Under the pieces are notes generated by a model. It saw only the letters and a program-made list of their open reading frames with translations, had not been told where the DNA came from and made no database searches. Below, piece after piece: positions 2,614 through 53,473 of a stretch of 64,000 nt of DNA (positions within the stretch are counted from its first letter, which is position 1; every line of letters starts with the position of its first letter). Position numbers and translations under genes: made by a program. This DNA is from Thermotoga sp. KOL6 (lineage in GTDB: Bacteria; Thermotogota; Thermotogae; Thermotogales; Thermotogaceae): NCBI RefSeq assembly GCF_002866025.1, contig NZ_LNDE01000003.1:1-64000 (forward strand). Direction: 5' to 3'.

Positions 2614-4779
2614 TCACATCCCAAATTTTCTTTCCTCTTCTATTTTGAACATATCCTTCAATCTTATATCTCTCGAGGAGGCTCCAATCCTTACTTCGTA
2701 TTCACCTTCTTCCACAATCCATCCGTTTCCATCGAAACTGGCAAGATCTCTGATAGGTATCCCAACGGAGATTGTCTCAGATTCTCCCGGATTCAATTCT
2801 TTGGTCTTGTAGAAAGCCTTGAGTTCCTGCAAAGGTTTGTCTATCTTTCCCTTAGGAGCTTTGATATAAACCTGAGAAACTTCTTTTCCTGACCTTTCAC
2901 CAACATTGGTGATGGTGTAAGAAACTTTCAGTAAGTCGTTTTCAAGAGAAACTTTCAGGTTTCCATACTCGAATTTCGTGTATGAGAGACCATAACCGAA
3001 TTCATAAGCTGGTTCCACCCCAAAAGTATCGTAATATCTGTATCCAACGTAGATATCCTCTTCATAAACGACTTTCAGTGGATTGTCTCTCGGTTCTCCA
3101 GGGAAAGTCCAAGACGGAACATCATGATAATCTTTCGGGAACGTAGTAGGTAATTTTCCAGATGGGTTTGCTTCCCCACTCAAAACGTCCGCCACTATCC
3201 TTCCCATTTCCTGACCTGCTTGCCAGACGAGAAGAATTCCATCCACTAAATCTCTCCAACTTGCGATTTCAATTGGACTACCAATGTTGAGCAAAACGAC
3301 TACCTTCTTTCCAAACTCGTGGAACTCTCGGGATACCGTTTGAATGAGTTCCATTTCGTCGTCAGAGAGATAGAAATCTCCTTTTATCGGTTTTCTATCG
3401 TATCCTTCACCGGAAATTCTGCTGATCACAATTACTGCAACATCGTTCTTCTTCGCTATCTTCTTTATCTCTCTTTCGGAAAGAAAATTCTCGGGAAGCT
3501 TAGGCTTTATAACCGTTCCCCAAGAATCTGTTCTCGGTTTGTACTCTTCGGTTTCTCTCATTTTCTTAATATACTCTTTGTAACTGTTTACCAACTCTCC
3601 GTCGAGTTTCAAACCTCTTTCTTCCATTCCTTCAAGAATGGAAATGGTGTACCTCGGGTGAGTGTCTCCACTTCCAGTTCCACCTTTTACGGTCTCTATC
3701 TGACCCGTTCCAAAAAGAGCTATGGGAGTACCTTCAATCAACGGCAACACATTCTCGTTTTTGAGAAGAACAACCCCTTCTAATCCTGCCTTATAAGCAA
3801 TCTTTGCGTGTGCGTCTAAGTTCGGTTTGTTAGAATATTTGTATCCTTTGAAAGAGGGAGCATTCATGAGAACCTTTAAAATGTTTCTCACACATTCGTC
3901 GAGAACTTCTTCACTCAATTTACCCTCTTTCAATGCTTCTTGAATCTCTTCTATTTCGTCTCTTCTTTCGGTGTTCACTTGATACACCTTTCCCGGCATT
4001 ATGAGATCGTTCCCGGCTTTGAGCTGCTCCACAGGATTGTCTCCCGCGTACCAATCACTCATCACAAAACCTTCAAAACCCCATTCTTTTCTCAACACCT
4101 TTTTTAATAGCCATTCACTTTGAGAGCAGTATTTACCGTTCAATTTGTTGTAAGCACTCATTACACTCCAAGGTTTTCCTTTTTTAACAGCGATCTCAAA
4201 ACCTTTCAAATACACTTCTCTTAAAGCCCTTTCAGAAACGATGGTATCCACGATCATTCTGTTGGTTTCTTGATTGTTCGCCACAAAATGCTTTATGCAC
4301 GCACCAACCCCCTGCGATTGAACCCCCCTCACAAAGGCAGAAGCCAACTCCCCCGAAAGAACAGGATCCTCAGAGTAATACTCGAAATTTCTACCACACA
4401 ATGGATTTCTGTGTATGTTCATAGCAGGTGCAAGAAGAACGTCTACTCCGTATTCTCTCGTTTCTTCCCCCATCGCCTTTCCAACTTCCTCAAGCAACTC
4501 TTTGTTCCAAGTGGAAGCAAGCATGATCTCCACAGGAAAAGCTGTCGTATAATAGGTGTTGTCATCACCTTCACGCGTTGGATTTATTCTGAGTCCTGCC
4601 GGTCCGTCTGCAAGAACAAACGCCGGTATTCCAAGCCTCGGTATCGGATGAGTTTCTCCAGCCGCACCTGCTACCCTTGAGTGAGGATTCCCAAAAAGTC
4701 CTGGGAGTCCCACTCCTACAACAAGTTTTATTTTCTCTTCTAAAGTAAGCTGAGAAACAATTTCATTCACCTTTTCCAT
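2614..4779 (-). CDS. bglB: Beta-glucosidase, glycoside hydrolase family 3
   Basis: Cleaves terminal beta-glucosyl residues from imported gluco-oligosaccharides such as laminaribiose and cellobiose. There is no signal peptide, so it acts in the cytoplasm. The 721-residue protein has the GH3 (alpha/beta)8 domain (about 1-310), the alpha/beta sandwich domain (about 320-540) and a C-terminal fibronectin III-like domain (about 600-710). The motif VMSDWYAG places the nucleophile at Asp242, and KHF (163-165) with RNFEYYSEDP (130-139) gives the substrate pocket. Length and Asp242 agree with the structurally studied T. neapolitana Bgl3B, as remembered. The ATG overlaps the upstream small membrane protein gene by 17 bases, so the two are probably translated together. 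Confidence 0.95.
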   Translation of the reverse strand: MEKVNEIVSQLTLEEKIKLVVGVGLPGLFGNPHSRVAGAAGETHPIPRLGIPAFVLADGPAGLRINPTREGDDNTYYTTAFPVEIMLASTWNKELLEEVGKAMGEETREYGVDVLLAPAMNIHRNPLCGRNFEYYSEDPVLSGELASAFVRGVQSQGVGACIKHFVANNQETNRMIVDTIVSERALREVYLKGFEIAVKKGKPWSVMSAYNKLNGKYCSQSEWLLKKVLRKEWGFEGFVMSDWYAGDNPVEQLKAGNDLIMPGKVYQVNTERRDEIEEIQEALKEGKLSEEVLDECVRNILKVLMNAPSFKGYKYSNKPNLDAHAKIAYKAGLEGVVLLKNENVLPLIEGTPIALFGTGQIETVKGGTGSGDTHPRYTISILEGMEERGLKLDGELVNSYKEYIKKMRETEEYKPRTDSWGTVIKPKLPENFLSEREIKKIAKKNDVAVIVISRISGEGYDRKPIKGDFYLSDDEMELIQTVSREFHEFGKKVVVLLNIGSPIEIASWRDLVDGILLVWQAGQEMGRIVADVLSGEANPSGKLPTTFPKDYHDVPSWTFPGEPRDNPLKVVYEEDIYVGYRYYDTFGVEPAYEFGYGLSYTKFEYGNLKVSLENDLLKVSYTITNVGERSGKEVSQVYIKAPKGKIDKPLQELKAFYKTKELNPGESETISVGIPIRDLASFDGNGWIVEEGEYEVRIGASSRDIRLKDMFKIEEERKFGM

Positions 4780-5772: not shown

Positions 5773-6761
5773 ATTCTCTCCTCCATGTACAACCAACATG
5801 CCACTCTTCTTCCAGGTTCTATCTCAACGAGAGGCGGCTCCTTTTCTTTGCAAATTTCCATTGCGTGAGGGCATCTTGGATGAAACCTACATCCCGACGG
5901 CGGATTTATGAGGTTTGGTGGAGCTCCCGGAATGGTGGTAATGCCCCTCTTCTTGACCTCCGGCTCCGGTGTTAGAACCGAGTTGAACAATCCCTGAGTG
6001 TACGGATGAAATGGTTTTTCTAAAAGGGCCTCCACAGGAGCAAATTCCACGATCTTTCCAGCGTACATAATGATCATTCTATCCGCGATTTGCCTCACCG
6101 TAGCAATATCGTGTGTGATGAAGATAATGCTTTTCACAACACCTTGCTTTTTCAACTGCATGAGAACCTTCAAAAGAACCTTTTGATTCACAACATCCAA
6201 TGCTGAAGTCGGCTCATCCGCTATCAGAAGACTTGGGTTCAATATGGTTGCAATCGCTATAACGGCTCTCTGCCTCATCCCACCACTGAGCTCGAATGGA
6301 TACCTTTTGATCCACATGGGTTTCAAACCAACCTCTTCGAATCTCTTTTTTACTTTTTCCAAAAGCTCGTTTTCATCTATTCCATGGGACTCAGCAAGAT
6401 GTTTTACATACTTTTCCATTCTGATAGTCGGCATCAACGCGTTCATAGCAGATTGGGGAATGATCGTAATCTCCTTTCCCCAAAATCTCTTCTTCACCTC
6501 GTCCCTCGTCATAGAGGAAATCTCCTCATACTTTCCGTTCACCTTCATAAAAATTTTCCCTTCAACCAAAGTGAGAGGCTTAACCATGTTCATGAATATC
6601 ACGTTCGAAAGCGTTGTTTTACCACAACCGGATTCTCCTACAACTCCTATGACCTCATCTTCTAATATTTCGAAAGAAACTCCGTCTACCGCTTTCACAG
6701 AAACCTTTTCCAATTTATAGTAAGCCCTTACGTTCTCCGCTTTCAGAAGAATTTCCTTCAT
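5769..6761 (-). CDS. Opp/Dpp-type ABC transporter ATPase (OppD-like), sugar uptake
   Basis: Partner ATPase of the downstream gene product. 330 residues with Walker A GESGCGKT, signature LSGGMRQR, Walker B LLIADEPTS, and the C-terminal cysteine-rich motif typical of OppD/DppD (PSGCRFHPRCPHA), which can carry an iron-sulfur cluster in some family members. The frame is open for 50 more codons upstream, but these overlap the permease gene; the ATG at 6759-6761 has GGAGG 5-6 bases upstream and lies 2 bases after the permease stop, so it is the start. Confidence 0.93.
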   Translation of the reverse strand: MKEILLKAENVRAYYKLEKVSVKAVDGVSFEILEDEVIGVVGESGCGKTTLSNVIFMNMVKPLTLVEGKIFMKVNGKYEEISSMTRDEVKKRFWGKEITIIPQSAMNALMPTIRMEKYVKHLAESHGIDENELLEKVKKRFEEVGLKPMWIKRYPFELSGGMRQRAVIAIATILNPSLLIADEPTSALDVVNQKVLLKVLMQLKKQGVVKSIIFITHDIATVRQIADRMIIMYAGKIVEFAPVEALLEKPFHPYTQGLFNSVLTPEPEVKKRGITTIPGAPPNLINPPSGCRFHPRCPHAMEICKEKEPPLVEIEPGRRVACWLYMEERI

Positions 6762-6763
6762 GT

Positions 6764-7606
6764 TCACTCCTCCCTCAAGCGTGGATTGAAAACTTCGTCC
6801 ATTGCAGTGCTTATGACAAGCAAAGATGAGGTCAGTGCCACAATTGCAACTCCTGGTGGTACGAACCACCACCACAACCCTCTTCTCACAGCTTCCATTA
6901 AGACTGCCCACTGAAGCATGAGCCCAAGAGAAATTCCTTGTGTTGGTCCAAGACCTATCAAACTCAAACCAGCCTCTCCCATTATTCCGCCGTTTATGAA
7001 AAGAACGAAGGACATGAAAGCGTAAGTCGCTATAGTGGGAATCAGATCTTCTATTACAAGCCTAAGGTCTGAATACCCAGCCATTACCGAGAGGTACACA
7101 TACTCTCTAGACATCACACTCATGAGTTGCGCTCTTATCGCCCTTGCAAACCACGGCCATTGAAACAAACCCAATATGACCGCAACCATTTCTATGCTTC
7201 GAACTTTCAAGTAACTCGCTATCAGGATTGCGATTAGAATGGAAGGAGTAGTTAGTACTATGTTCGTTAAAGCCATTAAAGTGTCGTCGACGATACCTCC
7301 CTTAACTGCTGAAAAACTACCTATGATTGTTCCTATTACGAGAGAGATAATAGCAGCCAGAAATCCTATGTAGAGAGAAGAACGTATTCCATGCAGGAGT
7401 TGAGCAAGTATATCTCTTCCATAAGTATCTGTTCCAAGCGGATGAGTTAATGAAGGTGGTTGTTCGACATCCCATGTCATTTCCGTTGGATCAACTCTGT
7501 AGAAAACTGGTCCAAAAATTCCCAGGAATAGGAATAACAAGAAAATTGAGAATCCTATTATGAATTTCTTGTTTTTGAAAAGAGGTCTTATCATCGCCGA
7601 AAACAT
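6764..7606 (-). CDS. Opp/Dpp-type ABC permease (OppC-like), sugar uptake
   Basis: Inner-membrane channel subunit, 280 residues, with an N-terminal helix (about 14-33) and the DppC-type core. The binding-protein-dependent permease loop is seen around residues 170-200 and the HPLGTDTYGRDI motif of the OppC/DppC class near residue 50. The ATG has GGAGG 8 bases upstream and lies directly after the stop of the partner permease (3 bases between). It pairs with the upstream OppB-like protein. Confidence 0.92.
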   Translation of the reverse strand: MFSAMIRPLFKNKKFIIGFSIFLLFLFLGIFGPVFYRVDPTEMTWDVEQPPSLTHPLGTDTYGRDILAQLLHGIRSSLYIGFLAAIISLVIGTIIGSFSAVKGGIVDDTLMALTNIVLTTPSILIAILIASYLKVRSIEMVAVILGLFQWPWFARAIRAQLMSVMSREYVYLSVMAGYSDLRLVIEDLIPTIATYAFMSFVLFINGGIMGEAGLSLIGLGPTQGISLGLMLQWAVLMEAVRRGLWWWFVPPGVAIVALTSSLLVISTAMDEVFNPRLREE

Positions 7607-7609
7607 ATC

Positions 7610-8626
7610 TCATGCCTCCTGTCCTATTCTTATTCTTGGATCTATCAAGGCGTAGAGGAAGTCCACCACAAAATTGGCAATGTAGATAGACGCGATAAGA
7701 ATCACAAAGATCCCCTGAATCAACGGATAATCAAGCGTAGTTAAAGCTCTAAACAACAGATATCCCGTTCCGGGATAATTGAACACGATCTCAGTAATCA
7801 GAGCGCCTCCCAATGCTCCCCCCAAACTTAAAGCGAGTCCTGTTATTTGTGGGAGAAGAGAATTCCTGAACACATATCTGAAAATCCTTCTGTCTTTCAT
7901 TCCTAAGTACTCAGAAAACATAGCATAATCGCTTCCAAGCTCGTATATGACCATAAGCCTCATTCCGATTGCCCAGCCACCCATAGCAGAAACGACTATC
8001 GACAGGAAGGGAAGGATGTAATGTTTTGCCACATCTATGAAGAAAGACCAGCTGAGACTTGGAATGGTACCCTGGGAGTAAGCACCTTGAACAGGTAGCC
8101 AGTTGAGCTTCACACCGAAAAAGAAGATAAAAATCATTCCGAGCCAGTAGTACGGTATTTGAGACAATATGAGCGATGCCGTAAGAACACCTTTATCTAT
8201 CCATGTGTTTCTTCTGTAAGCAGCCCACGCCCCAAGACTGTTTCCAAGGATCCATGCCACAATCGTTGCTGGAAGCAAAAGCGCTAACGTCCACGGTATA
8301 ACAGGTATGATCAGGTCTATCACCTTTCTGGGGTAATAAGTAATCGACGTTCCAAGATCTCCTCTTAATGCCTTCCCAATGAACTCAATGTATTGAATAT
8401 ACAACGGTTTTCCTAAACCGAATTCTTCCATCAAATTTCTTTCAGCCGCCCTTATCGCTTCAGGATTGGCTTGAGCGACTCTGGAAAGATTAGACAACAA
8501 TTGCGCCAAAGGATTTCCAGGTATAGCCCTTGGCAAAATAAATACGATCGTTGTCGCAACTATATAGGTAACTAAAAGAAAAATGAATCTTCTCAGAAGA
8601 TACTTGAGCATGGACTTTGATCCCAT
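7610..8626 (-). CDS. Opp/Dpp-type ABC permease (OppB-like), sugar uptake
   Basis: Inner-membrane subunit of 338 residues with six predicted helices, an N-terminal helix (about 12-32) and the DppB-class motif IPGNPLAQL. The start ATG is preceded by GGAGTGAG with about 6 bases of spacing. A GC hairpin separates it from the binding-protein gene upstream, which would lower its expression relative to that gene. Confidence 0.92.
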   Translation of the reverse strand: MGSKSMLKYLLRRFIFLLVTYIVATTIVFILPRAIPGNPLAQLLSNLSRVAQANPEAIRAAERNLMEEFGLGKPLYIQYIEFIGKALRGDLGTSITYYPRKVIDLIIPVIPWTLALLLPATIVAWILGNSLGAWAAYRRNTWIDKGVLTASLILSQIPYYWLGMIFIFFFGVKLNWLPVQGAYSQGTIPSLSWSFFIDVAKHYILPFLSIVVSAMGGWAIGMRLMVIYELGSDYAMFSEYLGMKDRRIFRYVFRNSLLPQITGLALSLGGALGGALITEIVFNYPGTGYLLFRALTTLDYPLIQGIFVILIASIYIANFVVDFLYALIDPRIRIGQEA

Positions 8627-42898: not shown

Positions 42899-44326
42899 GT
42901 GTCTAACACAAGAAAAACTCTCTCTTTCTCTGCAGGGACCCTTATCTCCAGAATCACCGGCCTCTTTCGCGATATCACTCTTGCTAGCGTTTTCGGTGCT
43001 TCATCTGTTTTGGACGCCTATTACATTGCCATCGTTTTCCCATTCTTTTTGAGGAGAACGTTTGCAGAAGGAGCTATGAGCTCGGCCTTTCTTCCTATTT
43101 ACAACCAACTGAAGACGAAAGAGGAAAAAGAACGATTCACCTCTGCTGTTCTCACATCCCTTGGATTGATCACCCTCGGAGTTGTCATATTTTCCGAGAT
43201 ATTTCCTCGTTTCATGGTCTCCATATTCGCCACGGGAGCGGAAGAATCTATCAGATCACTCGCATCGTCTCTCCTTCGAATAACAGCTCCTTTCATCTCC
43301 ATAGTCTTCGTTTGGGCAGTGTTTTACTCGATCCACAACTCCCAACATAGATACTTCCTTCCAGCTTTAACACCCATGTTCTCGAATATAGGAGTAATAA
43401 TGGGAAGTCTCACGGGCGATATAAAATGGTCCGCTTTCGGATTCACAGCTGGAGGACTCATCGCTCTCCTTGTTCTACTACCTTACAGAGAAGGCTTCAA
43501 ATACAGGCCCACTTTCAGAGGATTAAAAAAGTTTTACAGAATGTTTTTTGCAACTTTTTTAACAATGGCTGTTTCGCAGATTGCCACTCTAGTAGATGTG
43601 AACGTGTCTTCATTTTTGGATCCCGGATCTCTTTCTTTGATACAACTTTCTAGTCGCCTCTACCAACTCCCGTTGGGGATCTTTGGAGTAGCCGTCTCCA
43701 CTGTGGCACTTTCAACGTTGAGCCAGGTGAAAGAAGAGGAATTCAACAGTAATCTGAGTGATTTCATCATCAAAAGTCTATTCCTCACCATACCATCAAC
43801 CGTGGGATTGATTGTTCTGTCAAAGAGGTTACTCTCTCTTCTGTTTGGCTATGGTGCTTTCACAAGCAAAGATGTGAAAACGGCTTCCGAGATACTTTCG
43901 ATGTACGCCCTCGGGCTGTGCTTTGTAGCGCTTTTTCATCTATTATCACGTGCTTATCATGCCAAAAGAAAAGCGAGGATCCCCTTTCTAGCGATGTTGC
44001 TCGTTTCGGTCGTGAATGTATGTCTCGACGTGGTCTTAGGACTCACTTTGAGAGCGAAAGGCATTGCTTTAGCAACTAGTGTTTCTTACATTGTAGGATT
44101 TTTCTTCCTCTTCTTCAAAATGAAACCATCTCTTGATAATCGGATCTTTAAAATCTTGGTTTCAGCGATTGTAATGGGGGTTACACTTCTCCTGATAAAA
44201 AACCTTTTCACAACAAGGATTGGTACGGTGTTCTTGGTATTTCTCGGCGCAGGTACGTATATTGGTGTTGGAAAGATTTTGAAGTTAAGGGAAGTGGAGG
44301 AGATCTTTAGAACAAAATTGCACTGA
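42899..44326 (+). CDS. murJ: Lipid II flippase MurJ (MviN)
   Basis: Flips lipid II across the inner membrane for peptidoglycan synthesis. About 475 residues, 13-14 hydrophobic helices. The N-terminal signature SRITGLFRDITLASVFG and AYYIAIVFPFFLRRTFAEGA with conserved Arg residues are those of MurJ. GTG at 42899 with GGGAGG seven bases upstream was chosen over an ATG five codons before that lies within that site. It is convergent with the MEMO gene and overlaps its 3' end by 20 bases. Confidence 0.93.
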   Translation: MSNTRKTLSFSAGTLISRITGLFRDITLASVFGASSVLDAYYIAIVFPFFLRRTFAEGAMSSAFLPIYNQLKTKEEKERFTSAVLTSLGLITLGVVIFSEIFPRFMVSIFATGAEESIRSLASSLLRITAPFISIVFVWAVFYSIHNSQHRYFLPALTPMFSNIGVIMGSLTGDIKWSAFGFTAGGLIALLVLLPYREGFKYRPTFRGLKKFYRMFFATFLTMAVSQIATLVDVNVSSFLDPGSLSLIQLSSRLYQLPLGIFGVAVSTVALSTLSQVKEEEFNSNLSDFIIKSLFLTIPSTVGLIVLSKRLLSLLFGYGAFTSKDVKTASEILSMYALGLCFVALFHLLSRAYHAKRKARIPFLAMLLVSVVNVCLDVVLGLTLRAKGIALATSVSYIVGFFFLFFKMKPSLDNRIFKILVSAIVMGVTLLLIKNLFTTRIGTVFLVFLGAGTYIGVGKILKLREVEEIFRTKLH

Positions 44327-45140
44327 GGTATCCTACAACTTCCAAAGTATCACCGGAAACATCACCGCTGGTTGCATGCTTCAATATTTTGCTGTTCTGG
44401 AACTTCAAGTTCAAAACCGTCGCAACACCACCATATCCACACATGCTGATATCTTCTCTCACAAGGTATTCATAAAGCATCCCTGGATTTCGTTTTTCTA
44501 TAGCTTCAATTATATAAGAATCTTTCCTCATAGTAGTTTTTTGATCTTCGTAATGATTCAAATCGGTCGATGCAACAACTAAGGTGCCTTCGAACTCCTT
44601 TGATAACGTATTTATTGCTTGAGCAAGATCTTCCGCAACCATAGGACTTTGATCCATCAAACAAATGGGAACGAAAGAAAAATCTCCGAAAACGAATTGT
44701 AGGAACGGGAGCTGCACTTCTATTGAATGTTCCCTCAAATGAGACAACGTATCTTCCTCCGCGTACCTGGAATTTTCTAAAATAATCTGGGCTGCTTTCT
44801 CATTTATCGGTACCGCACCGAGCGGTGTTTCCCAAAAACCATTCGGCCAAACTCCTACAGATTTGCCAAAACCCGTGTGATTAGGACCAACAATTACGAC
44901 AAGAGAGGGTTTCCCAAATTTGGCAACCTCAAGATATCCCCACGCCGCCACAGGACCGCTGTACACATAGCCTGCATGCGGTGAAACGAGAGCAAGAAGT
45001 TTGTTAAGGGACAAATCAACAGGACCAGGCAGCTTGCCTGGTCCTATCCTTTCATCCAAGAAACACATCTTTATCATCTCTATCAACTCATCACTTCGAG
45101 AAGGATAGAAGAGGCCAGCAACAGCTGGCTTTCTGATCAT
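44307..45140 (-). CDS. MEMO/AmmeMemoRadiSam system protein B family
   Basis: 277 residues of the MEMO family, related in fold to extradiol dioxygenases. Conserved His55 (SPHAGYVYSG), His88 (VGPNHTGFG), a later His in STDLNHYED and Cys in SMCGYGGVA fit the metal/active-site set of human MEMO. Activity in bacteria is unknown; in many genomes it occurs with an AMMECR1 protein and a radical SAM enzyme, neither of which is next to it here. The ATG overlaps the secretin stop (ATGA), so it ends the pilus/secretion operon. Confidence 0.88.
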   Translation of the reverse strand: MIRKPAVAGLFYPSRSDELIEMIKMCFLDERIGPGKLPGPVDLSLNKLLALVSPHAGYVYSGPVAAWGYLEVAKFGKPSLVVIVGPNHTGFGKSVGVWPNGFWETPLGAVPINEKAAQIILENSRYAEEDTLSHLREHSIEVQLPFLQFVFGDFSFVPICLMDQSPMVAEDLAQAINTLSKEFEGTLVVASTDLNHYEDQKTTMRKDSYIIEAIEKRNPGMLYEYLVREDISMCGYGGVATVLNLKFQNSKILKHATSGDVSGDTLEVVGYLSAILF

Positions 45141-48100
45141 GGTTCCACCACCTTGACCGTTACAAATATGATCAGATCCCTCTTTTCCTTGTTCTCCACC
45201 TTCGTTCTGAAGAACTGCCCCACTATCGGAAGATCTCCAAAGAAAGGCAACTTACTTTCCGTTACATTTGAAGTTTCCCTGATCAAACCACCTATCACTA
45301 TAGTGCTGTTGTTTTTCACAATGAGATGAGTTTGAGCCTCTCTTGTTCTCTCACCTGGCACTTCGTTAACGTAGTTTCCAGGCTCACTCGCTTTTACGAA
45401 AAGATCGAGTTCTATAGTATCATCACTCCTAACGAACGGAGTGATAGAAAGTTCTATACCAGTTTCGAGAAATTGAACTTCAGGCGTTCCATCTCCATTT
45501 GTATCTGTGACGTAAGGAATTCTGTCTCCGATGAGAATCCGCGCTTCCTTACCACTGGTGGTTACAATCCTGGGACTAGCTAGCAGATCGTCCAAAGTAT
45601 TGCTCTTTTGATCGCCGTAATGAAGAGACAACATACCGTTGAAGATGTCGTTGAACACTTTCTCAAAGTCAAGATAATCTGCTACTGAGAAAGAAATGCC
45701 AGCACCGGAAGATCCTAAACTCACACCTGCGCTGTCTAGAGTTAGACTCCTTTCTTTACTGAGTCTGTCTATCAAGGATTTATCCACTATTCTCGCGGAG
45801 ATCTCAACCTGTTTGATGGGTTTCTTAAGTTTTTCTATGATCCCATCCAGTTCCTTCTTTATTGTCTCAGAGATACCCGTAACTACCATGAAATTGTTCA
45901 AAGAATCCACATAAACTGTCCCACCGTAGAATTCTACGAGGGCTTTTATTTGTTCGAAGTTGTGCGGAATTTCATAGATGTACCTTTTCGCCAAATCTTG
46001 CTTCGGTTTGGAGACAACGTATATTCCTTCCTTCTGTTCAAAGAGATACCCATAGTTTTGGGATATCAGTTTTAAGAATTCCTCCCAAGAAACATTCTTC
46101 ACTTTTATAGTAACTTTTTCAGTGGGAGAATCTACAAACATGATGGATATTCCCAGCTCCTCAGCTGCCTCTTTGAGTAGATCGTACAATGGAGCTGCTT
46201 CAGTATTTATGAGAAGTTTCCCATCTATCACTTGAACATAATCCTTTGTTTCAAGAGTTTTAATCTTTTCTCTCTCCTCCTCTACAAGCTTGACGGCTTT
46301 TTCTACCACATCCTCCGGACCCTCGATCACCATTTGACCTATGTTCGGAAAGACTGTAATATCGATTCCGTCGAAGAGTTTTTTCAGATACGTAGCCACT
46401 TCGTTTGGATTCACACCGGTTGGTATTGAAACACTCTTCTTGGACAGACTTTCGGAAACACTTTTTACTTTCTCGAGGAAAACATCCAAAAGCTCTCTCA
46501 CTTTATCGGATTGGGAAGCGGGCACTTCCACTAGGAGCAAATTCAACTTGTCAAGATAAACGATCTTCCTAACTTGGGGGACAAGGACCTCTAGGAAGGT
46601 TTTGAACTGATCGTACGAAAAACCTACGGGTACTTCCAATGTAAGGTGCTCGAACACATTCTCCGCAGCCATCTTTTGATGTCTTTCGAAGAAAGAATTG
46701 TATATCTTTAAAAGATCAGTTACCGCATCGGAAGATCCTTTAATAACAATCAAATTCAATTTCTCTAGATTCAAGCACATCACTTTTGGATACAACTTAC
46801 CTGCCAAAGTAACGAACTCTTCAACTGGAAAGGAAGGATCTACTTCTATGAACTTTACAGTGTCTTCTTTTCGAATTTCTCCCAGCTTTCTCAGAATATC
46901 TTCGAATGTCTGCTTGGCCCTTTCGAGAGATTCTTTTGTTCCCTCGAACAAAACAGTTCCACCTATTATTTCGTACACAACACCTGAATTCTTACTCACC
47001 ACATTTAGCAGTTGCTCAGGATTTTCCAACCACTCTGGTAGCTCCACGATCAACTGCGAGATCTCTTTTCTCGTGCTCAAGATCCTCTGAAGGAGATCAC
47101 CTGCTTTTTCAACTTCCAGCTCATTCCCAACAACAACCAACTCACCTTCCAATTCCTCGACAGAGACGTCGTAGAGTTGGGTGAGAATCGTTTTTAGTTT
47201 GTCTACAGAAATGTCCCCTTCTTTTTTCACGAACTTGATAACTTTTTCTGTTGAAACGATAGCCTCTAACTCTTCCGCAGCTTTTTGAAGAACTTCTTCT
47301 TTCTTTCCAGCAAGCATGGCTACTTTCAGAGCAGGTAAATATTGAACTTCGACACCGTATTTTTCCAACAAGAATTTTTTGATATCTTCCAAGCTATCTT
47401 CATTTATGGAGACTTTTAAAAACCGTGTGTAACTACTCTGGAGTTTGTTCAAGTAATCAACAGCGTTATCGACAGAGTCTTGAAAACCCTCAACAAAGAC
47501 AAAATTTCCTATTTTTTCTACTGAAACATCGTACATTTTAGAAACAGCTGTTAGAATCTCCTGTTGAATATCCCGTTTCAACACCAGATTCTTCATTACA
47601 AAGTTTTTCCTTCGAAAATTCAACAATTTTTCCAAAACAGGATGGATCCTTTCGTAGACATCCTTTGGAACAAAGAGGGACGCTTTGATAGTTTTGCCCT
47701 CGATGTTCAGAAATTTCAATCTGGAGTTTGAAATTCCGAAGAACTGAAGAGCTGATTTTAGAAACTCTTCTTCTCCCTTTCTCAAATCAATGTAAAATGC
47801 ATCTCCAAGTTCGAGATTGTTTTCCGCGATGAAATTCACTAATTCTTTTTCCTTGTCAATAGGAACCTGACATACCACAAGATTCAGATCTTTGTAGGCT
47901 TGTGCTTCTACCCCAAGAACCAATTTGATCAAGTTGGCTGAAACTTCCGGATCATAAGCGTAAAAAACGAATTTCTTTGTGGGAACAACTTGGGGTTCTG
48001 GCTGCTGCTCTCCCGTTTCCAAAATCTTCAAGTACCGCTCGACTCTATTGATGGTTTCTGAGTCTCCCTCTAAGATAACTTTAGAGACAGGTTTCAAAAG

Positions 48101-48979
48101 ATAATACTCAAATTGGTAAACGTTCTTCAAGGAAGCCAGCAACTCTTCTACTTTTTCTGCTCCCACAGAGAAGGAAACTTCCTTCCGTTGAAGAGGAGGT
48201 GAGACAGACAGGAGACTCGCTATCAAATCGTGCTCTTCGGAAGTACCGTAAACGAAGAGGACAGATTTTGATGGAAGGTAGTCTATCATGGCTTCCTGTG
48301 ATATCAGACTCTTTATCTTGTCTGCTACAGTTTGATTCTCAACCTTGTATATTCCCCAGAACCTTTGAAATTTCCCAGAGACCTCATCGTACTTTCCAAT
48401 AAACATCGTTCCATCTGGAAAATAAGCGTAGGCTACCTCACCGAAAGTAACAAGGAGATCCCTCAAAGCATCTTCAGGAGTTACACCGTTCAATTTCAAA
48501 CTCGTGGTTGCTGTCTTCACACTCTCAGAAACAACAACGTTGAGGTTCAACCTTTCCGCAAGGTACTTCACCATGTCTTCGAAAGGCATGTTCTCAAAGG
48601 AAACATCTATTCTTTCTTCGCTTCGAGGAAACTTCATGACGACGCTGTTTCCATCAACTTCGTAATTCCCTGGAAACGGTACCAAAAGATTTGCGGACAC
48701 CATTACTCCATTTCCAACGTTTACAACCCGCACTCCTTCAACTGGTCCAACAGCAACAGGCAACATAAATCTGCTTATTTTCATCTTCACTCCCTTCAAA
48801 AACAAGGAGAACACCGTTCTAGAAGAGTTCATTTCTGCCGAGATATCTTCTGCGGGATCAGAAAGAAGGATCCGTATCAAAACTTGGTTTTTTTCCACTT
48901 GGGGTAAGACACCCACGAGTTCAATAGAAAAAGAGATTATCGTTATCAGGAGAAAGATGAACACAAATCCTTTTTTCAC
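45137..48979 (-). CDS. pilQ: Giant secretin (PilQ/GspD family) with many N-domains
   Basis: Outer-membrane secretin, about 1280 residues against 450-770 usually. Signal peptide, an AMIN-like region (about 25-120), an N0/STN domain (about 125-200), some eleven N1/KH-like modules of 55-70 residues (about 205-905), a second N0/STN domain (about 915-995), a further N1 (about 1000-1055) and the secretin barrel (about 1060-1280) with PRIVTTSGKEARILIGDRIPY and LPFFGDLPIVGQFF. The GTG at 48977-48979 has AGAGGTGA five bases upstream; earlier starts lie within that site. The long column could reach across the wide Thermotoga periplasm to the outer sheath (inference). Confidence 0.92.
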   Translation of the reverse strand: MKKGFVFIFLLITIISFSIELVGVLPQVEKNQVLIRILLSDPAEDISAEMNSSRTVFSLFLKGVKMKISRFMLPVAVGPVEGVRVVNVGNGVMVSANLLVPFPGNYEVDGNSVVMKFPRSEERIDVSFENMPFEDMVKYLAERLNLNVVVSESVKTATTSLKLNGVTPEDALRDLLVTFGEVAYAYFPDGTMFIGKYDEVSGKFQRFWGIYKVENQTVADKIKSLISQEAMIDYLPSKSVLFVYGTSEEHDLIASLLSVSPPLQRKEVSFSVGAEKVEELLASLKNVYQFEYYLLKPVSKVILEGDSETINRVERYLKILETGEQQPEPQVVPTKKFVFYAYDPEVSANLIKLVLGVEAQAYKDLNLVVCQVPIDKEKELVNFIAENNLELGDAFYIDLRKGEEEFLKSALQFFGISNSRLKFLNIEGKTIKASLFVPKDVYERIHPVLEKLLNFRRKNFVMKNLVLKRDIQQEILTAVSKMYDVSVEKIGNFVFVEGFQDSVDNAVDYLNKLQSSYTRFLKVSINEDSLEDIKKFLLEKYGVEVQYLPALKVAMLAGKKEEVLQKAAEELEAIVSTEKVIKFVKKEGDISVDKLKTILTQLYDVSVEELEGELVVVGNELEVEKAGDLLQRILSTRKEISQLIVELPEWLENPEQLLNVVSKNSGVVYEIIGGTVLFEGTKESLERAKQTFEDILRKLGEIRKEDTVKFIEVDPSFPVEEFVTLAGKLYPKVMCLNLEKLNLIVIKGSSDAVTDLLKIYNSFFERHQKMAAENVFEHLTLEVPVGFSYDQFKTFLEVLVPQVRKIVYLDKLNLLLVEVPASQSDKVRELLDVFLEKVKSVSESLSKKSVSIPTGVNPNEVATYLKKLFDGIDITVFPNIGQMVIEGPEDVVEKAVKLVEEEREKIKTLETKDYVQVIDGKLLINTEAAPLYDLLKEAAEELGISIMFVDSPTEKVTIKVKNVSWEEFLKLISQNYGYLFEQKEGIYVVSKPKQDLAKRYIYEIPHNFEQIKALVEFYGGTVYVDSLNNFMVVTGISETIKKELDGIIEKLKKPIKQVEISARIVDKSLIDRLSKERSLTLDSAGVSLGSSGAGISFSVADYLDFEKVFNDIFNGMLSLHYGDQKSNTLDDLLASPRIVTTSGKEARILIGDRIPYVTDTNGDGTPEVQFLETGIELSITPFVRSDDTIELDLFVKASEPGNYVNEVPGERTREAQTHLIVKNNSTIVIGGLIRETSNVTESKLPFFGDLPIVGQFFRTKVENKEKRDLIIFVTVKVVEP

Positions 48980-48997
48980 AGCCATCACCTCTTTTCA

Positions 48998-49456
48998 TCA
49001 CCTTATTGAGAAAAATCTCCCATTTTTTACATCCAACACCAACACTCCTAAACTAGAAACATAGCTGACCACATAATTGTCAAAAACAGGATTATCTCCT
49101 GAAACTTCAAACTGTTTTTTTCCATCCGTGATGAACACTTTTATCCCGTTGTTCGTTCTTATGAACCCTAAAAATCTGTAATTCAGGGTTGGAAGGGTCA
49201 TTATCAGAACATCGGCCGCTTCTTTTCCAAAGTTGAGTCTAGCCGGATTGAAAACACTCAGAGGAGATTTGATAGGATTTTCAAGAGCGAACTTCTTTAA
49301 CTCAGGATCTACACGTATTTTGTTCACAAGAGATATGAAATTGACCTCACTTTCTTGTAAAGAGATTGTCTCCGTGTTTCCTTTGAGAAGGTAGAAAATG
49401 GCGACGAACCAAACTGTTCCCATAACAATTAGTAGAACAACAGTTCTTCGATTCAT
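48998..49456 (-). CDS. PilP-like pilus/secretion assembly protein
   Basis: 152 residues with one N-terminal membrane helix (about 6-25), and a mature part ending in short strands (LNYRFLGFIRTNNGIKVFITDG, GVLVLDVKNGRFFSIR) that resembles the beta domain of PilP/GspC, which links the inner-membrane complex to the secretin. No lipobox, unlike classical PilP. The call depends on its place just before the secretin gene. ATGA overlap with the upstream gene. Confidence 0.68.
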   Translation of the reverse strand: MNRRTVVLLIVMGTVWFVAIFYLLKGNTETISLQESEVNFISLVNKIRVDPELKKFALENPIKSPLSVFNPARLNFGKEAADVLIMTLPTLNYRFLGFIRTNNGIKVFITDGKKQFEVSGDNPVFDNYVVSYVSSLGVLVLDVKNGRFFSIR

Positions 49457-49869
49457 TCTTTCACCTCTTCTATTTCAACTGAAACTTTCACCTTCGGTTG
49501 AGATATTCGTAATCCCAAAAAATCAACAGGAATTATCCTTTTGGCGTCTATCATCAGCTGTTTCACTGCTACTTTCCGTGTTTCAATAAGTTGCCTCAAA
49601 AGGTGCTCGACTTCTTCTGTAGTGAATTCTCTTTTTTCCAACGTGAAATCAAAATCCGGCGTACTCTTTATCGCATTCAATATATCTTCGTACTCTTTCT
49701 GTTTCATACGAAAAATACGGTAGGCAGGGGCGAGATTTTGAAGCTTTTTCTCTACTTTCTTTGTGTTAGAGATGAATATCACAAAGTCCGGTATCACAAG
49801 ACCAAACACCAACGCAAAAAGTGTTAAAATGGAGAACCAAATGGCAAATCTTCTGTTGATTCCTTTCAT
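49453..49869 (-). CDS. PilO-like inner-membrane pilus protein
   Basis: 138 residues: N-terminal helix (about 9-32), a coiled-coil segment (about 35-65), then a small alpha/beta domain with PDFDFTLEKREFTTEEV. This is the bitopic PilO/GspM plan. The call rests on layout and position between the PilN-like and PilP-like genes. Overlaps both neighbours by 4 bases. Confidence 0.68.
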   Translation of the reverse strand: MKGINRRFAIWFSILTLFALVFGLVIPDFVIFISNTKKVEKKLQNLAPAYRIFRMKQKEYEDILNAIKSTPDFDFTLEKREFTTEEVEHLLRQLIETRKVAVKQLMIDAKRIIPVDFLGLRISQPKVKVSVEIEEVKE

Positions 49870-50420
49870 TTTCCCGCCACCTCGTATTCAATCTTGTATT
49901 TTCTCAAAAAGTAGCCTTCAGGTAACTTCTCCTCAAATTCAAGTTCGAATTTTGCTTTCTCTGGAAGTTCAGGAAAAAGACTGGTTTGTGATTCTTTAGA
50001 AACTTCGTAGAATTCCACCACAGCTCCTTCCTTGGAGAAACTCAAATAGCTTAACGTTCGTTTCTTCTCTTGGAAAATGTTGAGGAGTACCCTTGAAAAA
50101 TCCTCCCAAGTTTTTCTTTTTCCAAGATAAGCATTTAAACTGTTCGTCTTGCTGTCGAGCTCCTTGATTTGGCTCACCAACGTATTTTCAATACGAGATA
50201 CCTCTTCTAAATTCCGAAAAGAATCGATAGAGAGATCCACCGAATAAGCCCTTAGAATATCGGAGTATTCGTTTTCTAAACTCTCTATCATCTGTTCCTT
50301 AACATACCTGAAATAGATGTTGAAAGAAATGGGTGGTAAAAGCATTACAACGAGGAGGACAACGAAAGTGGTCACCTTTATCTTACGTTTTTTATACGGA
50401 TATATGTTTAACTTTTCCAA
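49866..50420 (-). CDS. PilN-like inner-membrane pilus protein
   Basis: 184 residues: short cytoplasmic N-terminus with MEKLNIYPYKKRK, whose NIYP resembles the INLLP motif with which PilN binds PilM; one membrane helix (about 15-37), a coiled coil (about 40-90) and a ferredoxin-like C-terminal domain. TTG start with GGAGGGAG upstream. The 5' end lies 29 bases inside the PilM-like gene. Confidence 0.73.
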   Translation of the reverse strand: MEKLNIYPYKKRKIKVTTFVVLLVVMLLPPISFNIYFRYVKEQMIESLENEYSDILRAYSVDLSIDSFRNLEEVSRIENTLVSQIKELDSKTNSLNAYLGKRKTWEDFSRVLLNIFQEKKRTLSYLSFSKEGAVVEFYEVSKESQTSLFPELPEKAKFELEFEEKLPEGYFLRKYKIEYEVAGK

Positions 50421-51372
50421 TTTCTCTCCCTCCCCTTAGCAAAAGGCCCAATCCTCCCAGAGACATCCTGGGTTTTATAGAAAGCACAGGACCTTCCTTC
50501 AATGTGACTCCTTCGAACTTTTTGAGCGTCTGCGAAAAAGCCTGTGAAAGAATGGGAGGATCGACAATGTAGAAAAACTGATCAGCTTTTTCTAAGGAAA
50601 GTTCATCCAGAGAAGCTTTTACTTCCCTATCCAGCTCTAACAAGAAATCCCCAAAATAAGGTTGCAGAAAATCTAAGGAAATTTCCACCATCCCTTCCAC
50701 AATTTCTTTAGGCTGAATTCCTGTGTTTTCTGTGATAATATCCATGAAATCCCAAAAAACAGAAAACATCATTCTACAGCTTCGATAGCGATCATTTTGT
50801 AGAATCACCGTTGAATAATAATCGTTGAAAAAAGAAATCACAATCAACATCGAAATACCTTTCAAGCGTTTCTTGAAATAAAATTCGAAGATTTCCAAAT
50901 ATTTGGCAACGTCTGGTATCAAAATGTCTGTCTCAGGAAAACCACTTTTCATCAGATTATCAACGAAAGATTTCACTTGATCCACTTTTGAAACAAAAAA
51001 CAATCCTTCCCCTTCATAGATATCGAGAGGCGCTACCAAAAGTTTCTCGGGAACTATCCCAAGATTTCTGGATATTTCCACAGCGGCATATTCTTTGACA
51101 TCTTGTTTTCTCAATGTTGGAGGAACCTTTATTTTCATTATCAAAACATTCTCCATTGGCATGTTCGCTACGACAATGTCTTCGAGGTCCTGTTCAACAC
51201 CATTCATCAGCTCAGCAATTACTTTTGTACCTTCGTTTTCATCGAACATTTCGACCAACTTCGATGAACGTTTTAAAAGACTCAACTTAGAACCCCTCAT
51301 CCTAGCACGAGTAATTTCCAAAAAATGGGTACACATGTTCAACGCCAAAATATCGTTATAAAATAACTGCAA
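50392..51372 (-). CDS. PilM-like actin-fold protein
   Basis: 326 residues, cytoplasmic. The central and C-terminal parts (ISMLIVISFFNDYYSTVILQND, FYIVDPPILSQAF, PRMSLGGLGLLLR) fit the actin-like PilM/GspL cytoplasmic fold, but nucleotide-binding motifs are weak. The identification is helped by its place before the PilN-like gene. TTG start with AGGAGGAG upstream. Confidence 0.65.
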   Translation of the reverse strand: MQLFYNDILALNMCTHFLEITRARMRGSKLSLLKRSSKLVEMFDENEGTKVIAELMNGVEQDLEDIVVANMPMENVLIMKIKVPPTLRKQDVKEYAAVEISRNLGIVPEKLLVAPLDIYEGEGLFFVSKVDQVKSFVDNLMKSGFPETDILIPDVAKYLEIFEFYFKKRLKGISMLIVISFFNDYYSTVILQNDRYRSCRMMFSVFWDFMDIITENTGIQPKEIVEGMVEISLDFLQPYFGDFLLELDREVKASLDELSLEKADQFFYIVDPPILSQAFSQTLKKFEGVTLKEGPVLSIKPRMSLGGLGLLLRGGREIGKVKHISV

Positions 51373-51373
51373 A

Positions 51374-51757
51374 CTATCTCCTCCTGTATATCCTCATTCG
51401 TCCTGTCACGGGCTCGATAGTTACTCTCCAGCCCCCACCATACACAGTACCAGAAATGGATACAAAACCGTTTTTGAAAGTGATGTTTTTACCCGCAACA
51501 GGTCCTTCAGGGTAGATTTCAAAGGGAAAAGAGTACTCTATACTCCTGTTTTTTCTGGGGTCGTAAAAAACAATCTTTCCATTATTTTCTATCATTAAAA
51601 GGCCGTTTTTAGAAGTGCGCTCTATCATTTGTATTGTCTTTATCTTGAAAAGAATCGGTTGAACTAACGTTTCAGTTTTAATCCAAAGAATTGGCACGAA
51701 AAAGGCTATTATTAAGAAAGAGATCGCGAGAACGATGAGTACTTCAACCACATTCAT
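51374..51757 (-). CDS. Pilin/pseudopilin-like protein without leader peptide
   Basis: 127 residues. The first 25 residues (MNVVEVLIVLAISFLIIAFF) look like the mature N-terminal helix of a type IV pilin, with the conserved Glu at position 5, but no positively charged leader and no Gly before position 1 is encoded: the ATG overlaps the pilC stop (ATGA) and no leader is found in the frame upstream. The C-terminal domain is beta-rich and resembles minor pseudopilins. Either a leaderless pseudopilin or a membrane protein derived from one. Confidence 0.75.
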   Translation of the reverse strand: MNVVEVLIVLAISFLIIAFFVPILWIKTETLVQPILFKIKTIQMIERTSKNGLLMIENNGKIVFYDPRKNRSIEYSFPFEIYPEGPVAGKNITFKNGFVSISGTVYGGGWRVTIEPVTGRMRIYRRR

Positions 51758-52962
51758 CCACCGATGCTCCTTTGAAGTTGGAATACGGTGGTATATATGG
51801 AATACGCTAAGAATGCTACAAAGCCCCCCACTCCAGCTATCAAAAGGGGTTCGACTAAAGACACCAAACGTTTCACACTGTTCCGCACGATATCTTCGTA
51901 AAAGTCTGCAACTCTTTCCATTACTTCATCAACTTTTCCTGTTTCCTCTCCAGTACCTATCATCTCATATATCAACTGCGGAAACACACCACTCTCCGCA
52001 AAAGTATCTCTCAGTGTTTTCCCTTCTGAAATCTTCTGCACCATTTCATCACTCTTGCGTACAATTGAAGGAGAATCGGAAGCGTGAGCCGCCATTTTTA
52101 TTGCATCCGTTATCCTAACCCCACTGCTTATGAGAATACCCAAAGTTCTCGCAAACCGTTCGAGCCCCATGTTTCGCCTGAGATTTCGGACTGGTGGAAA
52201 CAAGAAAGATAAGTACTCTTTTATATAAACTCCATACCTAGATCTCATGATGATGAAAAGGATTACCACAACACCAACAACGAGGACAGAAAACCAAGGC
52301 CAATTTTTGCTGAGAAATTTGTTTGCCTTTAAAAGTGCTTGAATTGTTGGAGACAGGGGAATAGAAGTTCCAAAGGCTCGAACGAGGCTGGGAAGTATGT
52401 AAAAACTGATCACGAGAACTATAACGACAGCGAAAAAGAGAACAAAAAGAGGATAAGCCATGGCAGATTTCACTTCATCCTGAAGCCTTTTCACACTTTC
52501 GTAAAATTCAGCCGCCTTCCTCAAAGTTCTATCAAGAACACCACCTTCTTCACCTGCTTCCAACATGCTTATCAACACATTATCGAAAGCACCTGTTTTC
52601 CGGAAAGCATCGGCAAGAGTATCGCCCGTTTCCACATTGACCAGGATTTCCGTAATGATCTTTCTGAAGCGTCTTGAAAAAACTTCCTGACGTGCCAATA
52701 TATTTAAAGCTTCCTTTATTCTAATGCCGGCCGAAATCATTATGGAGAGTTGACGACAAAAAGTGGCGATCTCGTTGATAGAAACCTGAAAAAAAGGGGA
52801 TCTTCTTTTGAAATTTTTCTGTTCTTCGACGCGAACGACCATCAAACCTCTCTCAGCGAGTACGGAAATCGCTTTCACTTTATTCTCGGCTTCTATAACC
52901 CCCCTTATCTTTCTCCCACTCCCCTCCACGGCTACATACTTGTAGAAAGGCATCCTAAGCAA
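51754..52962 (-). CDS. pilC: Type IV pilus / type II secretion inner-membrane platform protein PilC/GspF
   Basis: 402 residues with two homologous GspF domains, each a helical bundle followed by membrane helices (helices near 165-190, 215-240 and 370-395). Motifs IATFCRQLSIMISAGIRIKEAL and ERFARTLGILISSGVRITDAI start the two repeats. TTG start (52960-52962) with AAAGGGGATGA upstream; the ATG at 52951-52953 is an alternative. No PilB/PilT ATPase or prepilin peptidase gene is in the window. Confidence 0.93.
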   Translation of the reverse strand: MLRMPFYKYVAVEGSGRKIRGVIEAENKVKAISVLAERGLMVVRVEEQKNFKRRSPFFQVSINEIATFCRQLSIMISAGIRIKEALNILARQEVFSRRFRKIITEILVNVETGDTLADAFRKTGAFDNVLISMLEAGEEGGVLDRTLRKAAEFYESVKRLQDEVKSAMAYPLFVLFFAVVIVLVISFYILPSLVRAFGTSIPLSPTIQALLKANKFLSKNWPWFSVLVVGVVVILFIIMRSRYGVYIKEYLSFLFPPVRNLRRNMGLERFARTLGILISSGVRITDAIKMAAHASDSPSIVRKSDEMVQKISEGKTLRDTFAESGVFPQLIYEMIGTGEETGKVDEVMERVADFYEDIVRNSVKRLVSLVEPLLIAGVGGFVAFLAYSIYTTVFQLQRSIGG

Positions 52963-53428
52963 TCATCCCCTTTACTCTGAGCAATTTCACAACGTGTTGC
53001 TTTTCTTGCTCTATTATACCCTTTACTAGAGATTTTGCTTTCTCGTTTTTCAAAAGCTCTAGAATCTCATAATAGAAGATTATGGTTTCTTTTTCCACGG
53101 ATATAGAAAAATCGATAGCCTCTTCGACCGACTTTTCTTTCAGGTATTTTTCCATCGTTTCTGTGTCCGGAAAAAATCTTCCTTCGACGAAAGATTTCAA
53201 ATACTCTTCTGCATCGCTGAGATCTAAATAAGTTTCCTCACTTACTTTCAATTCCTCTCCTATTTTTTCAAACGTTCGGGCATGTTCTGATTCTTGACGG
53301 GACATGTAAGAGAAAAATTCTTTTATATCAGGCTTGTCCTTGAAACGATCTGATAATTTTCTGTAGAACTCTTCCCCTTCTTTTTCCACTCTGATGGCTA
53401 CGCTGAGTAATTCTTTCGCTGAAAACAT
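52955..53428 (-). CDS. Rubrerythrin/ferritin-like diiron protein
   Basis: 157 residues forming a predicted four-helix bundle. Two diiron half-sites are visible: EKEGEEFYRKL with ESEHARTF (Glu46, His49) in the first half and EKETIIFYYEI with EQEKQHVVKL in the second. It lacks the C-terminal rubredoxin domain of classical rubrerythrin. Role: probably peroxide or oxygen protection or metal storage. ATG with AGGAGGTG upstream; an earlier in-frame start overlaps the promoter. Its 3' end overlaps pilC by 8 bases, making it the first gene of the pilus/secretin operon. Confidence 0.87.
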   Translation of the reverse strand: MFSAKELLSVAIRVEKEGEEFYRKLSDRFKDKPDIKEFFSYMSRQESEHARTFEKIGEELKVSEETYLDLSDAEEYLKSFVEGRFFPDTETMEKYLKEKSVEEAIDFSISVEKETIIFYYEILELLKNEKAKSLVKGIIEQEKQHVVKLLRVKGMIA

Positions 53429-53442
53429 TCTCACACCTCCTT

Positions 53443-53460
53443 GTGTTAGAATTATAACAC
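53443..53460 (-). promoter_or_regulatory. Promoter and palindromic operator of rubrerythrin/pilus operon
   Basis: Extended -10 TGTTATAAT on the minus strand (-10 at 53451-53456), no strong -35. The perfect inverted repeat GTGTTA-N6-TAACAC (53443-53460) covers the -10 box, so a repressor bound here would stop transcription of rubrerythrin and probably of the genes behind it. It only loosely resembles a PerR/Fur box. Confidence 0.6.
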
Positions 53461-53473
53461 TTTTATTCAAGTA

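Follow-up and report, generated by a model that had tools for sequence, protein, structure and literature searches.

The window, as the whole analysed stretch of 64,000 nucleotides from Thermotoga sp. KOL6 is called here, contains on its minus strand an open reading frame (45137-48988) that encodes a secretin of 1283 aa when counted from its first GTG. An alternative GTG at 48979, with a better-spaced GAGGTG ribosome site six bases upstream, gives 1280 aa and is, judging from the sequence, the likelier true start; residue numbers are counted here from the 48988 start and are thus 3 higher than in the first-pass annotation of this DNA. The barrel, N0 and N1 parts that characterize the PF00263 superfamily were all recognized above the Pfam cut-offs, namely Secretin (PF00263) at residues 1129-1282 (142.9 bits, cut-off 27.5, E 9.4e-42), Secretin_N at residues 859-904 (56.7 bits, cut-off 28.2, E 2.8e-15) and STN in two stretches (47.4 bits, cut-off 28.4, E 1.7e-12). 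The best subfamily model was that of PilQ, NCBIfam TIGR02515, with 186.7 bits against a cut-off of 284.35 (E 6.9e-55), and the GspD model TIGR02517 also remained below its cut-off (127.5 bits, cut-off 351.35, E 6e-37). Because the TIGR02515 score lies under the curated cut-off, the protein is named PilQ-like and not a certified member of that family; an AMIN domain in front of N0, which belongs to the definition of PilQ, was found by fold comparison with 4aqz. Sequence profiles and the structural model together confirm a predicted PilQ-like secretin with the layout AMIN-N0-(N1)11-N0'-N1-barrel.

Domain layout of the secretin

The domain folds were read from an AlphaFold2 model of residues 22-1075, based on an alignment of only 8 rows (the window protein and seven relatives), since scans of the genome collection gave few relatives: a single-protein query returned none, and a four-row alignment returned seven metagenome-assembled genomes. 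The model (mean pLDDT 72.7, pTM 0.31) contains 12 beta-alpha-beta-beta-alpha N1 modules, two N0 domains and a nine-strand sandwich; a pTM of 0.31 makes it a guide to the folds of the domains and not to the arrangement of the modules relative to each other. Structure comparison with VIA mainly covers model residues 26-305, and families absent from it may still match.

A predicted signal peptide (48926-48979), recognized from the GTG start at 48979, the Shine-Dalgarno motif GAGGTG and a hydrophobic N-terminus, precedes the nine-strand AMIN-type beta-sandwich (residues 22-123; 48620-48925), which resembles the B2 domain of Neisseria meningitidis PilQ (4aqz; VIA Z 13.2, 99 aa, 2.2 A) and the E. 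coli AmiC entry 4bin, residues 34-145 (VIA Z 12.4), and which, on the basis of this fold, is likely peptidoglycan-associated. The outer N0 that follows (residues 124-203; 48380-48619) has STN/FecR_C matches and resembles the N0 of N. meningitidis PilQ (4ar0, Z 10.7, 21% identity). The N1 array begins with module 1 (residues 211-262; 48203-48358), delimited by DSSP of the AlphaFold2 model, and module 2 (residues 266-328; 48005-48193), which matches the GspD N1 3ezj (Z 10.2) and the N1 HMM at residues 274-324. A Pro/Gln-rich linker of about 19 aa (47954-48004) separates it from module 3 (residues 336-390; 47819-47983), whose first strand is unmodelled; modules 1 and 3 are both modelled weakly (pLDDT ~42-60). 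This is the sole long linker of the array, all others between successive N1 modules being 2-6 aa. Module 4 (residues 395-460; 47609-47806) is defined by the AlphaFold2 model, and the model and the HMM agree on modules 5 (residues 462-517; 47438-47605), 6 (residues 519-580; 47249-47434), 7 (residues 582-638; 47075-47245; KH-like match, Z 9.1) and 8 (residues 643-703; 46880-47062). They agree likewise on module 9 (residues 708-776; 46661-46867), to which an alignment with Vibrio cholerae GspD adds, module 10 (residues 778-846; 46451-46657), to which structure comparison adds, and module 11 (residues 848-913; 46250-46447), which holds the Pfam Secretin_N match; in the structure comparison, modules 9-11 align successively to residues 97-316 of V. 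cholerae GspD, its stacked N1-N3. The inner N0' (residues 914-998; 45995-46249), identified by Pfam STN and structure comparison, resembles type III secretin N0 domains (2y9k, a Salmonella needle-complex entry, Z 10.8; InvG 4g08, Z 9.4) and has a sequence match to the N0 of N. meningitidis PilQ (E 0.012). Module 12 (residues 1001-1055; 45824-45988), again found by both HMM and model, adjoins the barrel, whose core spans residues 1129-1282 (45143-45604).

The first-pass annotation had described a giant secretin with about 12 N1 units and two N0 domains, and Pfam, HMMs compared with shuffled sequences and the AlphaFold2 folds agree on this. An N1 HMM trained on Kosmotogaceae proteins alone gave 5 matches in the window protein at E<0.01, with 3 of 200 shuffles yielding one match each, and a Thermotogales N1 HMM built from AlphaFold2-defined units counted 47 units in the 4575-residue protein of locus L072 and 28 in that of L073 (shuffles 0-0.25). 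The unit starts first given (207 to 850), once shifted by 3, lie within 6 residues of the AlphaFold2-defined starts. The profile search it had proposed found STN, Secretin_N and Secretin, and the structure prediction returned 12 N1 modules. For residues 205-905, coiled coil and an unrelated fold are both ruled out by the model together with the fold matches, and this region contains more than five N1 units. What had been missed is the N-terminal AMIN domain at 22-123.

A pil-like gene cluster

The secretin is the last gene of a PilC...PilM/N/O/P/Q-like cluster on the minus strand, in which the PilM match is weak and PilN and PilO are placed by position. Next to it lies a PilP-like protein (48998-49456) with a transmembrane helix and an HR beta domain; sequence search alone gave no match, and its predicted identity comes from the fold, the top nine VIA rows for its AlphaFold2 model being HR domains of GspC, PilP, PulC and GspB (Z 3.7-6.7). 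The PilO-like (49453-49869) and PilN-like (49866-50420) small membrane proteins are named from position and size only, neither having a Pfam match, and the PilM-like protein (50392-51372) from a weak profile match to T. thermophilus PilM 2ych (E 0.022, the best of 4 matches). The platform protein of the inner membrane, PilC (51754-52962), has a T2SSF match at E 6.8e-60. Between PilC and PilM, a small protein of 127 aa (51374-51757), without a Pfam match and pilin-like by position, is possibly a pilin-like minor component; a small protein occupies the same conserved position in locus L094 (5525-5905). This locus belongs to a genome with a 4575-aa secretin, in which the PilC-x-PilM/N/O/P-Q order is kept and the neighbours are near normal size.

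In Thermotoga maritima, TM0088 and TM_0094 have been assigned by homology as pilQ and pilC among the competence genes, and natural competence is known in strains RQ7 and RQ2 (PMC5637354). The same work describes the type IV pilus genes of T. maritima as scattered and states that the competence genes lie outside operons (PMC5637354); the latter statement is contradicted in part by the pil-like cluster in the window. At its two borders, a Memo-family gene (44307-45140) shares 4 bp with the end of the secretin gene, and a rubrerythrin-like gene (52955-53470), followed by a dihydrouridine synthase gene, is the immediate upstream neighbour of pilC and is oriented like it. A Memo-like ORF also adjoins the secretin in the related locus L091, making it a conserved neighbour with no evident pilus link; the rubrerythrin-like gene, the dihydrouridine synthase gene and pilC probably share a transcript.

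Module number and envelope width across Thermotogota

A secretin match was found in 44 of the 45 genomes of the order, where complete copies of the long secretin measure 995-1619 aa, and within the genus of the window their length is confined to 1281-1285 aa. The number of N1 modules differs between lineages, from about 4-6 in Petrotogaceae-like proteins (about 660-910 aa) and 11-17 in Thermotogales to about 33 in Kosmotoga olearia (2635 aa, genome G063) and 45-58 in another genus of the Kosmotogaceae (family f9), g27, which is probably Mesotoga (loci L072-L077, 3900-4575 aa). In the families tested, a common bracket was detected with profiles of AMIN, N0, N0' and the last N1, more weakly in family f7 and in Petrotogaceae-like proteins; with the bracket AMIN-N0-(N1)n-N0'-N1 conserved, it is mainly the middle N1 array that varies. 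ORFs of 836 to 1047 aa in g26 and g28 were rejected as short versions, as several touch contig ends and the frame in genome G065 is split by an inverted segment.

The first-pass annotation had suggested that the stem bridges the wide periplasm beneath the toga. In Thermotoga, the coiled-coil protein OmpA1 (Omp alpha) maintains a distance of about 50 nm between the toga and the cytoplasmic membrane (PMC3387000), and a stem bridging this gap would be expected to follow the length of the spacer. The spacer was taken as the SLH/coiled-coil ORF picked by SLH matches and measured as ORF length, with its composition strand-checked; the correlations comprise 22-23 lineages, with contrasts calculated on a barrel-domain tree and with a length of about 2620 aa for PilQ of G065 that is an estimate spanning the inverted segment. 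Covariation was found: the Spearman coefficient between PilQ and spacer ORF length is 0.77 over 22 genera and 0.71 without Kosmotogaceae (overall range 0.68-0.77), and independent contrasts give r 0.61-0.65 (p 0.001-0.002), or 0.74 without the Kosmotogaceae. Under other choices of SLH protein the contrasts range over r 0.45-0.65, with 0.45 for the shortest SLH ORF in all genomes. As a negative control, the short secretins of the 387-aa type gave a rho of 0.13 against the spacer (n=13), compared with 0.70 for PilQ in the same set. Bridging of the toga gap is thus supported indirectly by this covariation, the tube itself being an interpretation. Five genomes of family f3 (G014, G015, G013, G012 and G020) encode SLH ORFs of ~1000-1140 aa besides the usual spacers of 400-600 aa.

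The expected length of a stacked stem was calculated with a ring pitch of 2.7-4.2 nm, of which the upper value comes from the Thermus particle and the lower values, from 2.7 nm, are drawn from GspD. At this pitch, 14 rings and the barrel would reach about 48-69 nm, compared with the reported gap of ~50 nm. The 45-58 rings of Kosmotogaceae would extend to about 130-180 nm or more, when their spacers imply about 50-90 nm, so a straight stack is about twice the length of the spacer and simple length matching fails there. Location of the machine where the toga balloons, at the poles, or a non-linear array could explain this overshoot.

A putative conduit across the toga gap

The reading that we favour with moderate confidence is that of a type IV pilus or competence conduit, whose N1 stem bridges the toga gap and whose module number is tuned to the width of the envelope. 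The AMIN domain and outer N0 would be located at the cell wall and the inner-membrane platform, formed by the PilP-like HR domain with PilM/N/O/C, and the inner N0', the last N1 and the barrel would form the outer-membrane end, of ordinary secretin build, in the toga; this orientation relative to the two membranes is proposed by homology to PilQ. The eleven intervening N1 modules would make up a long stem, for which the simplest form is a coaxial stack of rings; the linkers of 2-6 aa and the successive alignment of modules 9-11 to the stacked N1-N3 of V. cholerae GspD are compatible with this arrangement. The proposed function of such a stem would be to lead the pilus, or the path of DNA uptake, over the gap of roughly 50 nm, and recombination would adjust the number of modules to the width of the envelope. 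More tentatively, and with rather less confidence than doubt, stem length may be regarded as a heritable ruler, Thermotogota tuning their N1 rings by recombination up to Kosmotogaceae columns of 45-58 rings and >120 nm. If this is true, these columns, built from subunits of 3900-4575 residues, would far exceed all known secretin assemblies in length.

Among the closest described systems is PilQ of Thermus thermophilus, a protein of 757 aa whose N0-N5 domains form six stacked rings of 350 A that span most of a wide periplasm and which serves both pili and DNA uptake (PMC5745081). Both systems share several beta-alpha-beta-beta-alpha modules and a wide periplasm as the reason for them, the rings being predicted from genes in the present case. 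The six rings of Thermus PilQ, previously called exceptional, compare with about 14 in the window protein and up to roughly 58 in its relatives, where only the stem varies inside a conserved bracket; the sections of the Thermus account used here do not describe a second N0 bracket or an AMIN domain, both present in the window protein. With PilQ of N. meningitidis the window protein shares AMIN (B2), N0, barrel and a PilP HR-domain partner, although the Neisseria protein lacks both a comparable N1 array and a second N0. GspD of type II secretion likewise has N0, successive N1-type modules (N1-N3), a barrel and an HR-domain partner (GspC), but it lacks AMIN and has three modules after N0 in place of twelve. 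OmpA1 itself combines a wall-binding SLH end, a spacer of variable length that covaries with the secretin and an outer-membrane end, yet it is a coiled coil, not homologous to the secretin, and forms no channel. In the literature searched, no published description of a long-stem Thermotogota secretin was found, and the stem of the window type is both variable and longer than any in that literature, "longest" being relative to it and to Thermotogota. With one gene, countable modules, an independent spacer yardstick and a transformable genus, the adaptation of envelope-spanning machines to envelope width becomes testable, and a distinct column is predicted in tomograms of togas.

Somewhat unlikely, in our estimation, is an exporter of the type II kind, for instance for hydrolases attached to the toga, or a pseudopilus for DNA uptake in place of a surface pilus, for which the stem would still be a bridge. 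The match of the GspD model (E 6e-37) and the scattered type IV pilus genes of T. maritima (PMC5637354) are in its favour, but the AMIN domain, the PilM/N/O/P-like gene order and the best secretin matches, which are to PilQ, point to a pilus system. The array may also be a flexible or folded-back tether with rings only near its ends, the middle letting the barrel follow a loose toga. This agrees with the pTM of 0.31, the one long Pro-rich linker, the Kosmotogaceae arrays that, when stacked straight, are about twice the spacer length, and the hinge at N4 already reported for Thermus PilQ; however, nearly all linkers are 2-6 aa and the N domains of solved secretins stack into rings, and we consider the tether unlikely.

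Growth and origin of the array

The N1 modules of the window protein are 15-20% identical on average, which, together with constant length within the genus, indicates that the expansion in this lineage is old. The first-pass annotation had called the expansion old, and this applies to Thermotogales, where the array is conserved order-wide, and not to Kosmotogaceae. In the 4575-aa secretin of L072 (genome G067), a 329-bp repeat at 100% identity occupies coding positions 6481-6809 and 7285-7613, and a 240-bp repeat at 98% lies at coding positions 4456-4695 and 7081-7320, so this array has been amplified recently and is an example of a repeat array still growing through recombination. Neutral growth, with recombination expanding the array in the absence of selection for length, would account for the identical 329-bp duplication, for an inverted segment in Kosmotoga pacifica and for the Kosmotogaceae overshoot of the spacer; it is nevertheless improbable, as length hardly changes inside a genus (1281-1285 aa in that of the window) and its covariation with the spacer holds independently of phylogeny. 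A surface that binds nucleic acid during competence, suggested by the KH-like fold of N1, the PNPase KH domains among its fold matches and the competence of Thermotoga, is very unlikely, as the GXXG motif occurs in 0 of 12 modules, 11 of the 12 are acidic and the net charge of the array is -23.

The genome of the window also encodes a second, compact secretin of 387 aa (L002:811-1974, G000:C1) with the layout N0-N1-barrel, which is present in most Thermotogota genomes. Its N0 matches the profile of the inner N0' (5.7e-7) better than that of the outer N0 (1.9e-5), and this, with the shared N0'-N1-barrel layout, favours the addition of an AMIN-N0-N1 block to a compact secretin. The extension of a short secretin proposed in the first-pass annotation is in this respect moderately supported by sequence comparison, the order of events being unproven. 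In K. pacifica (G065; L092:12522-13541 with L079), ~850 bp of the pilQ array encode N1 modules on the opposite strand, either through an assembly error at repeats or through a real recombination inversion.
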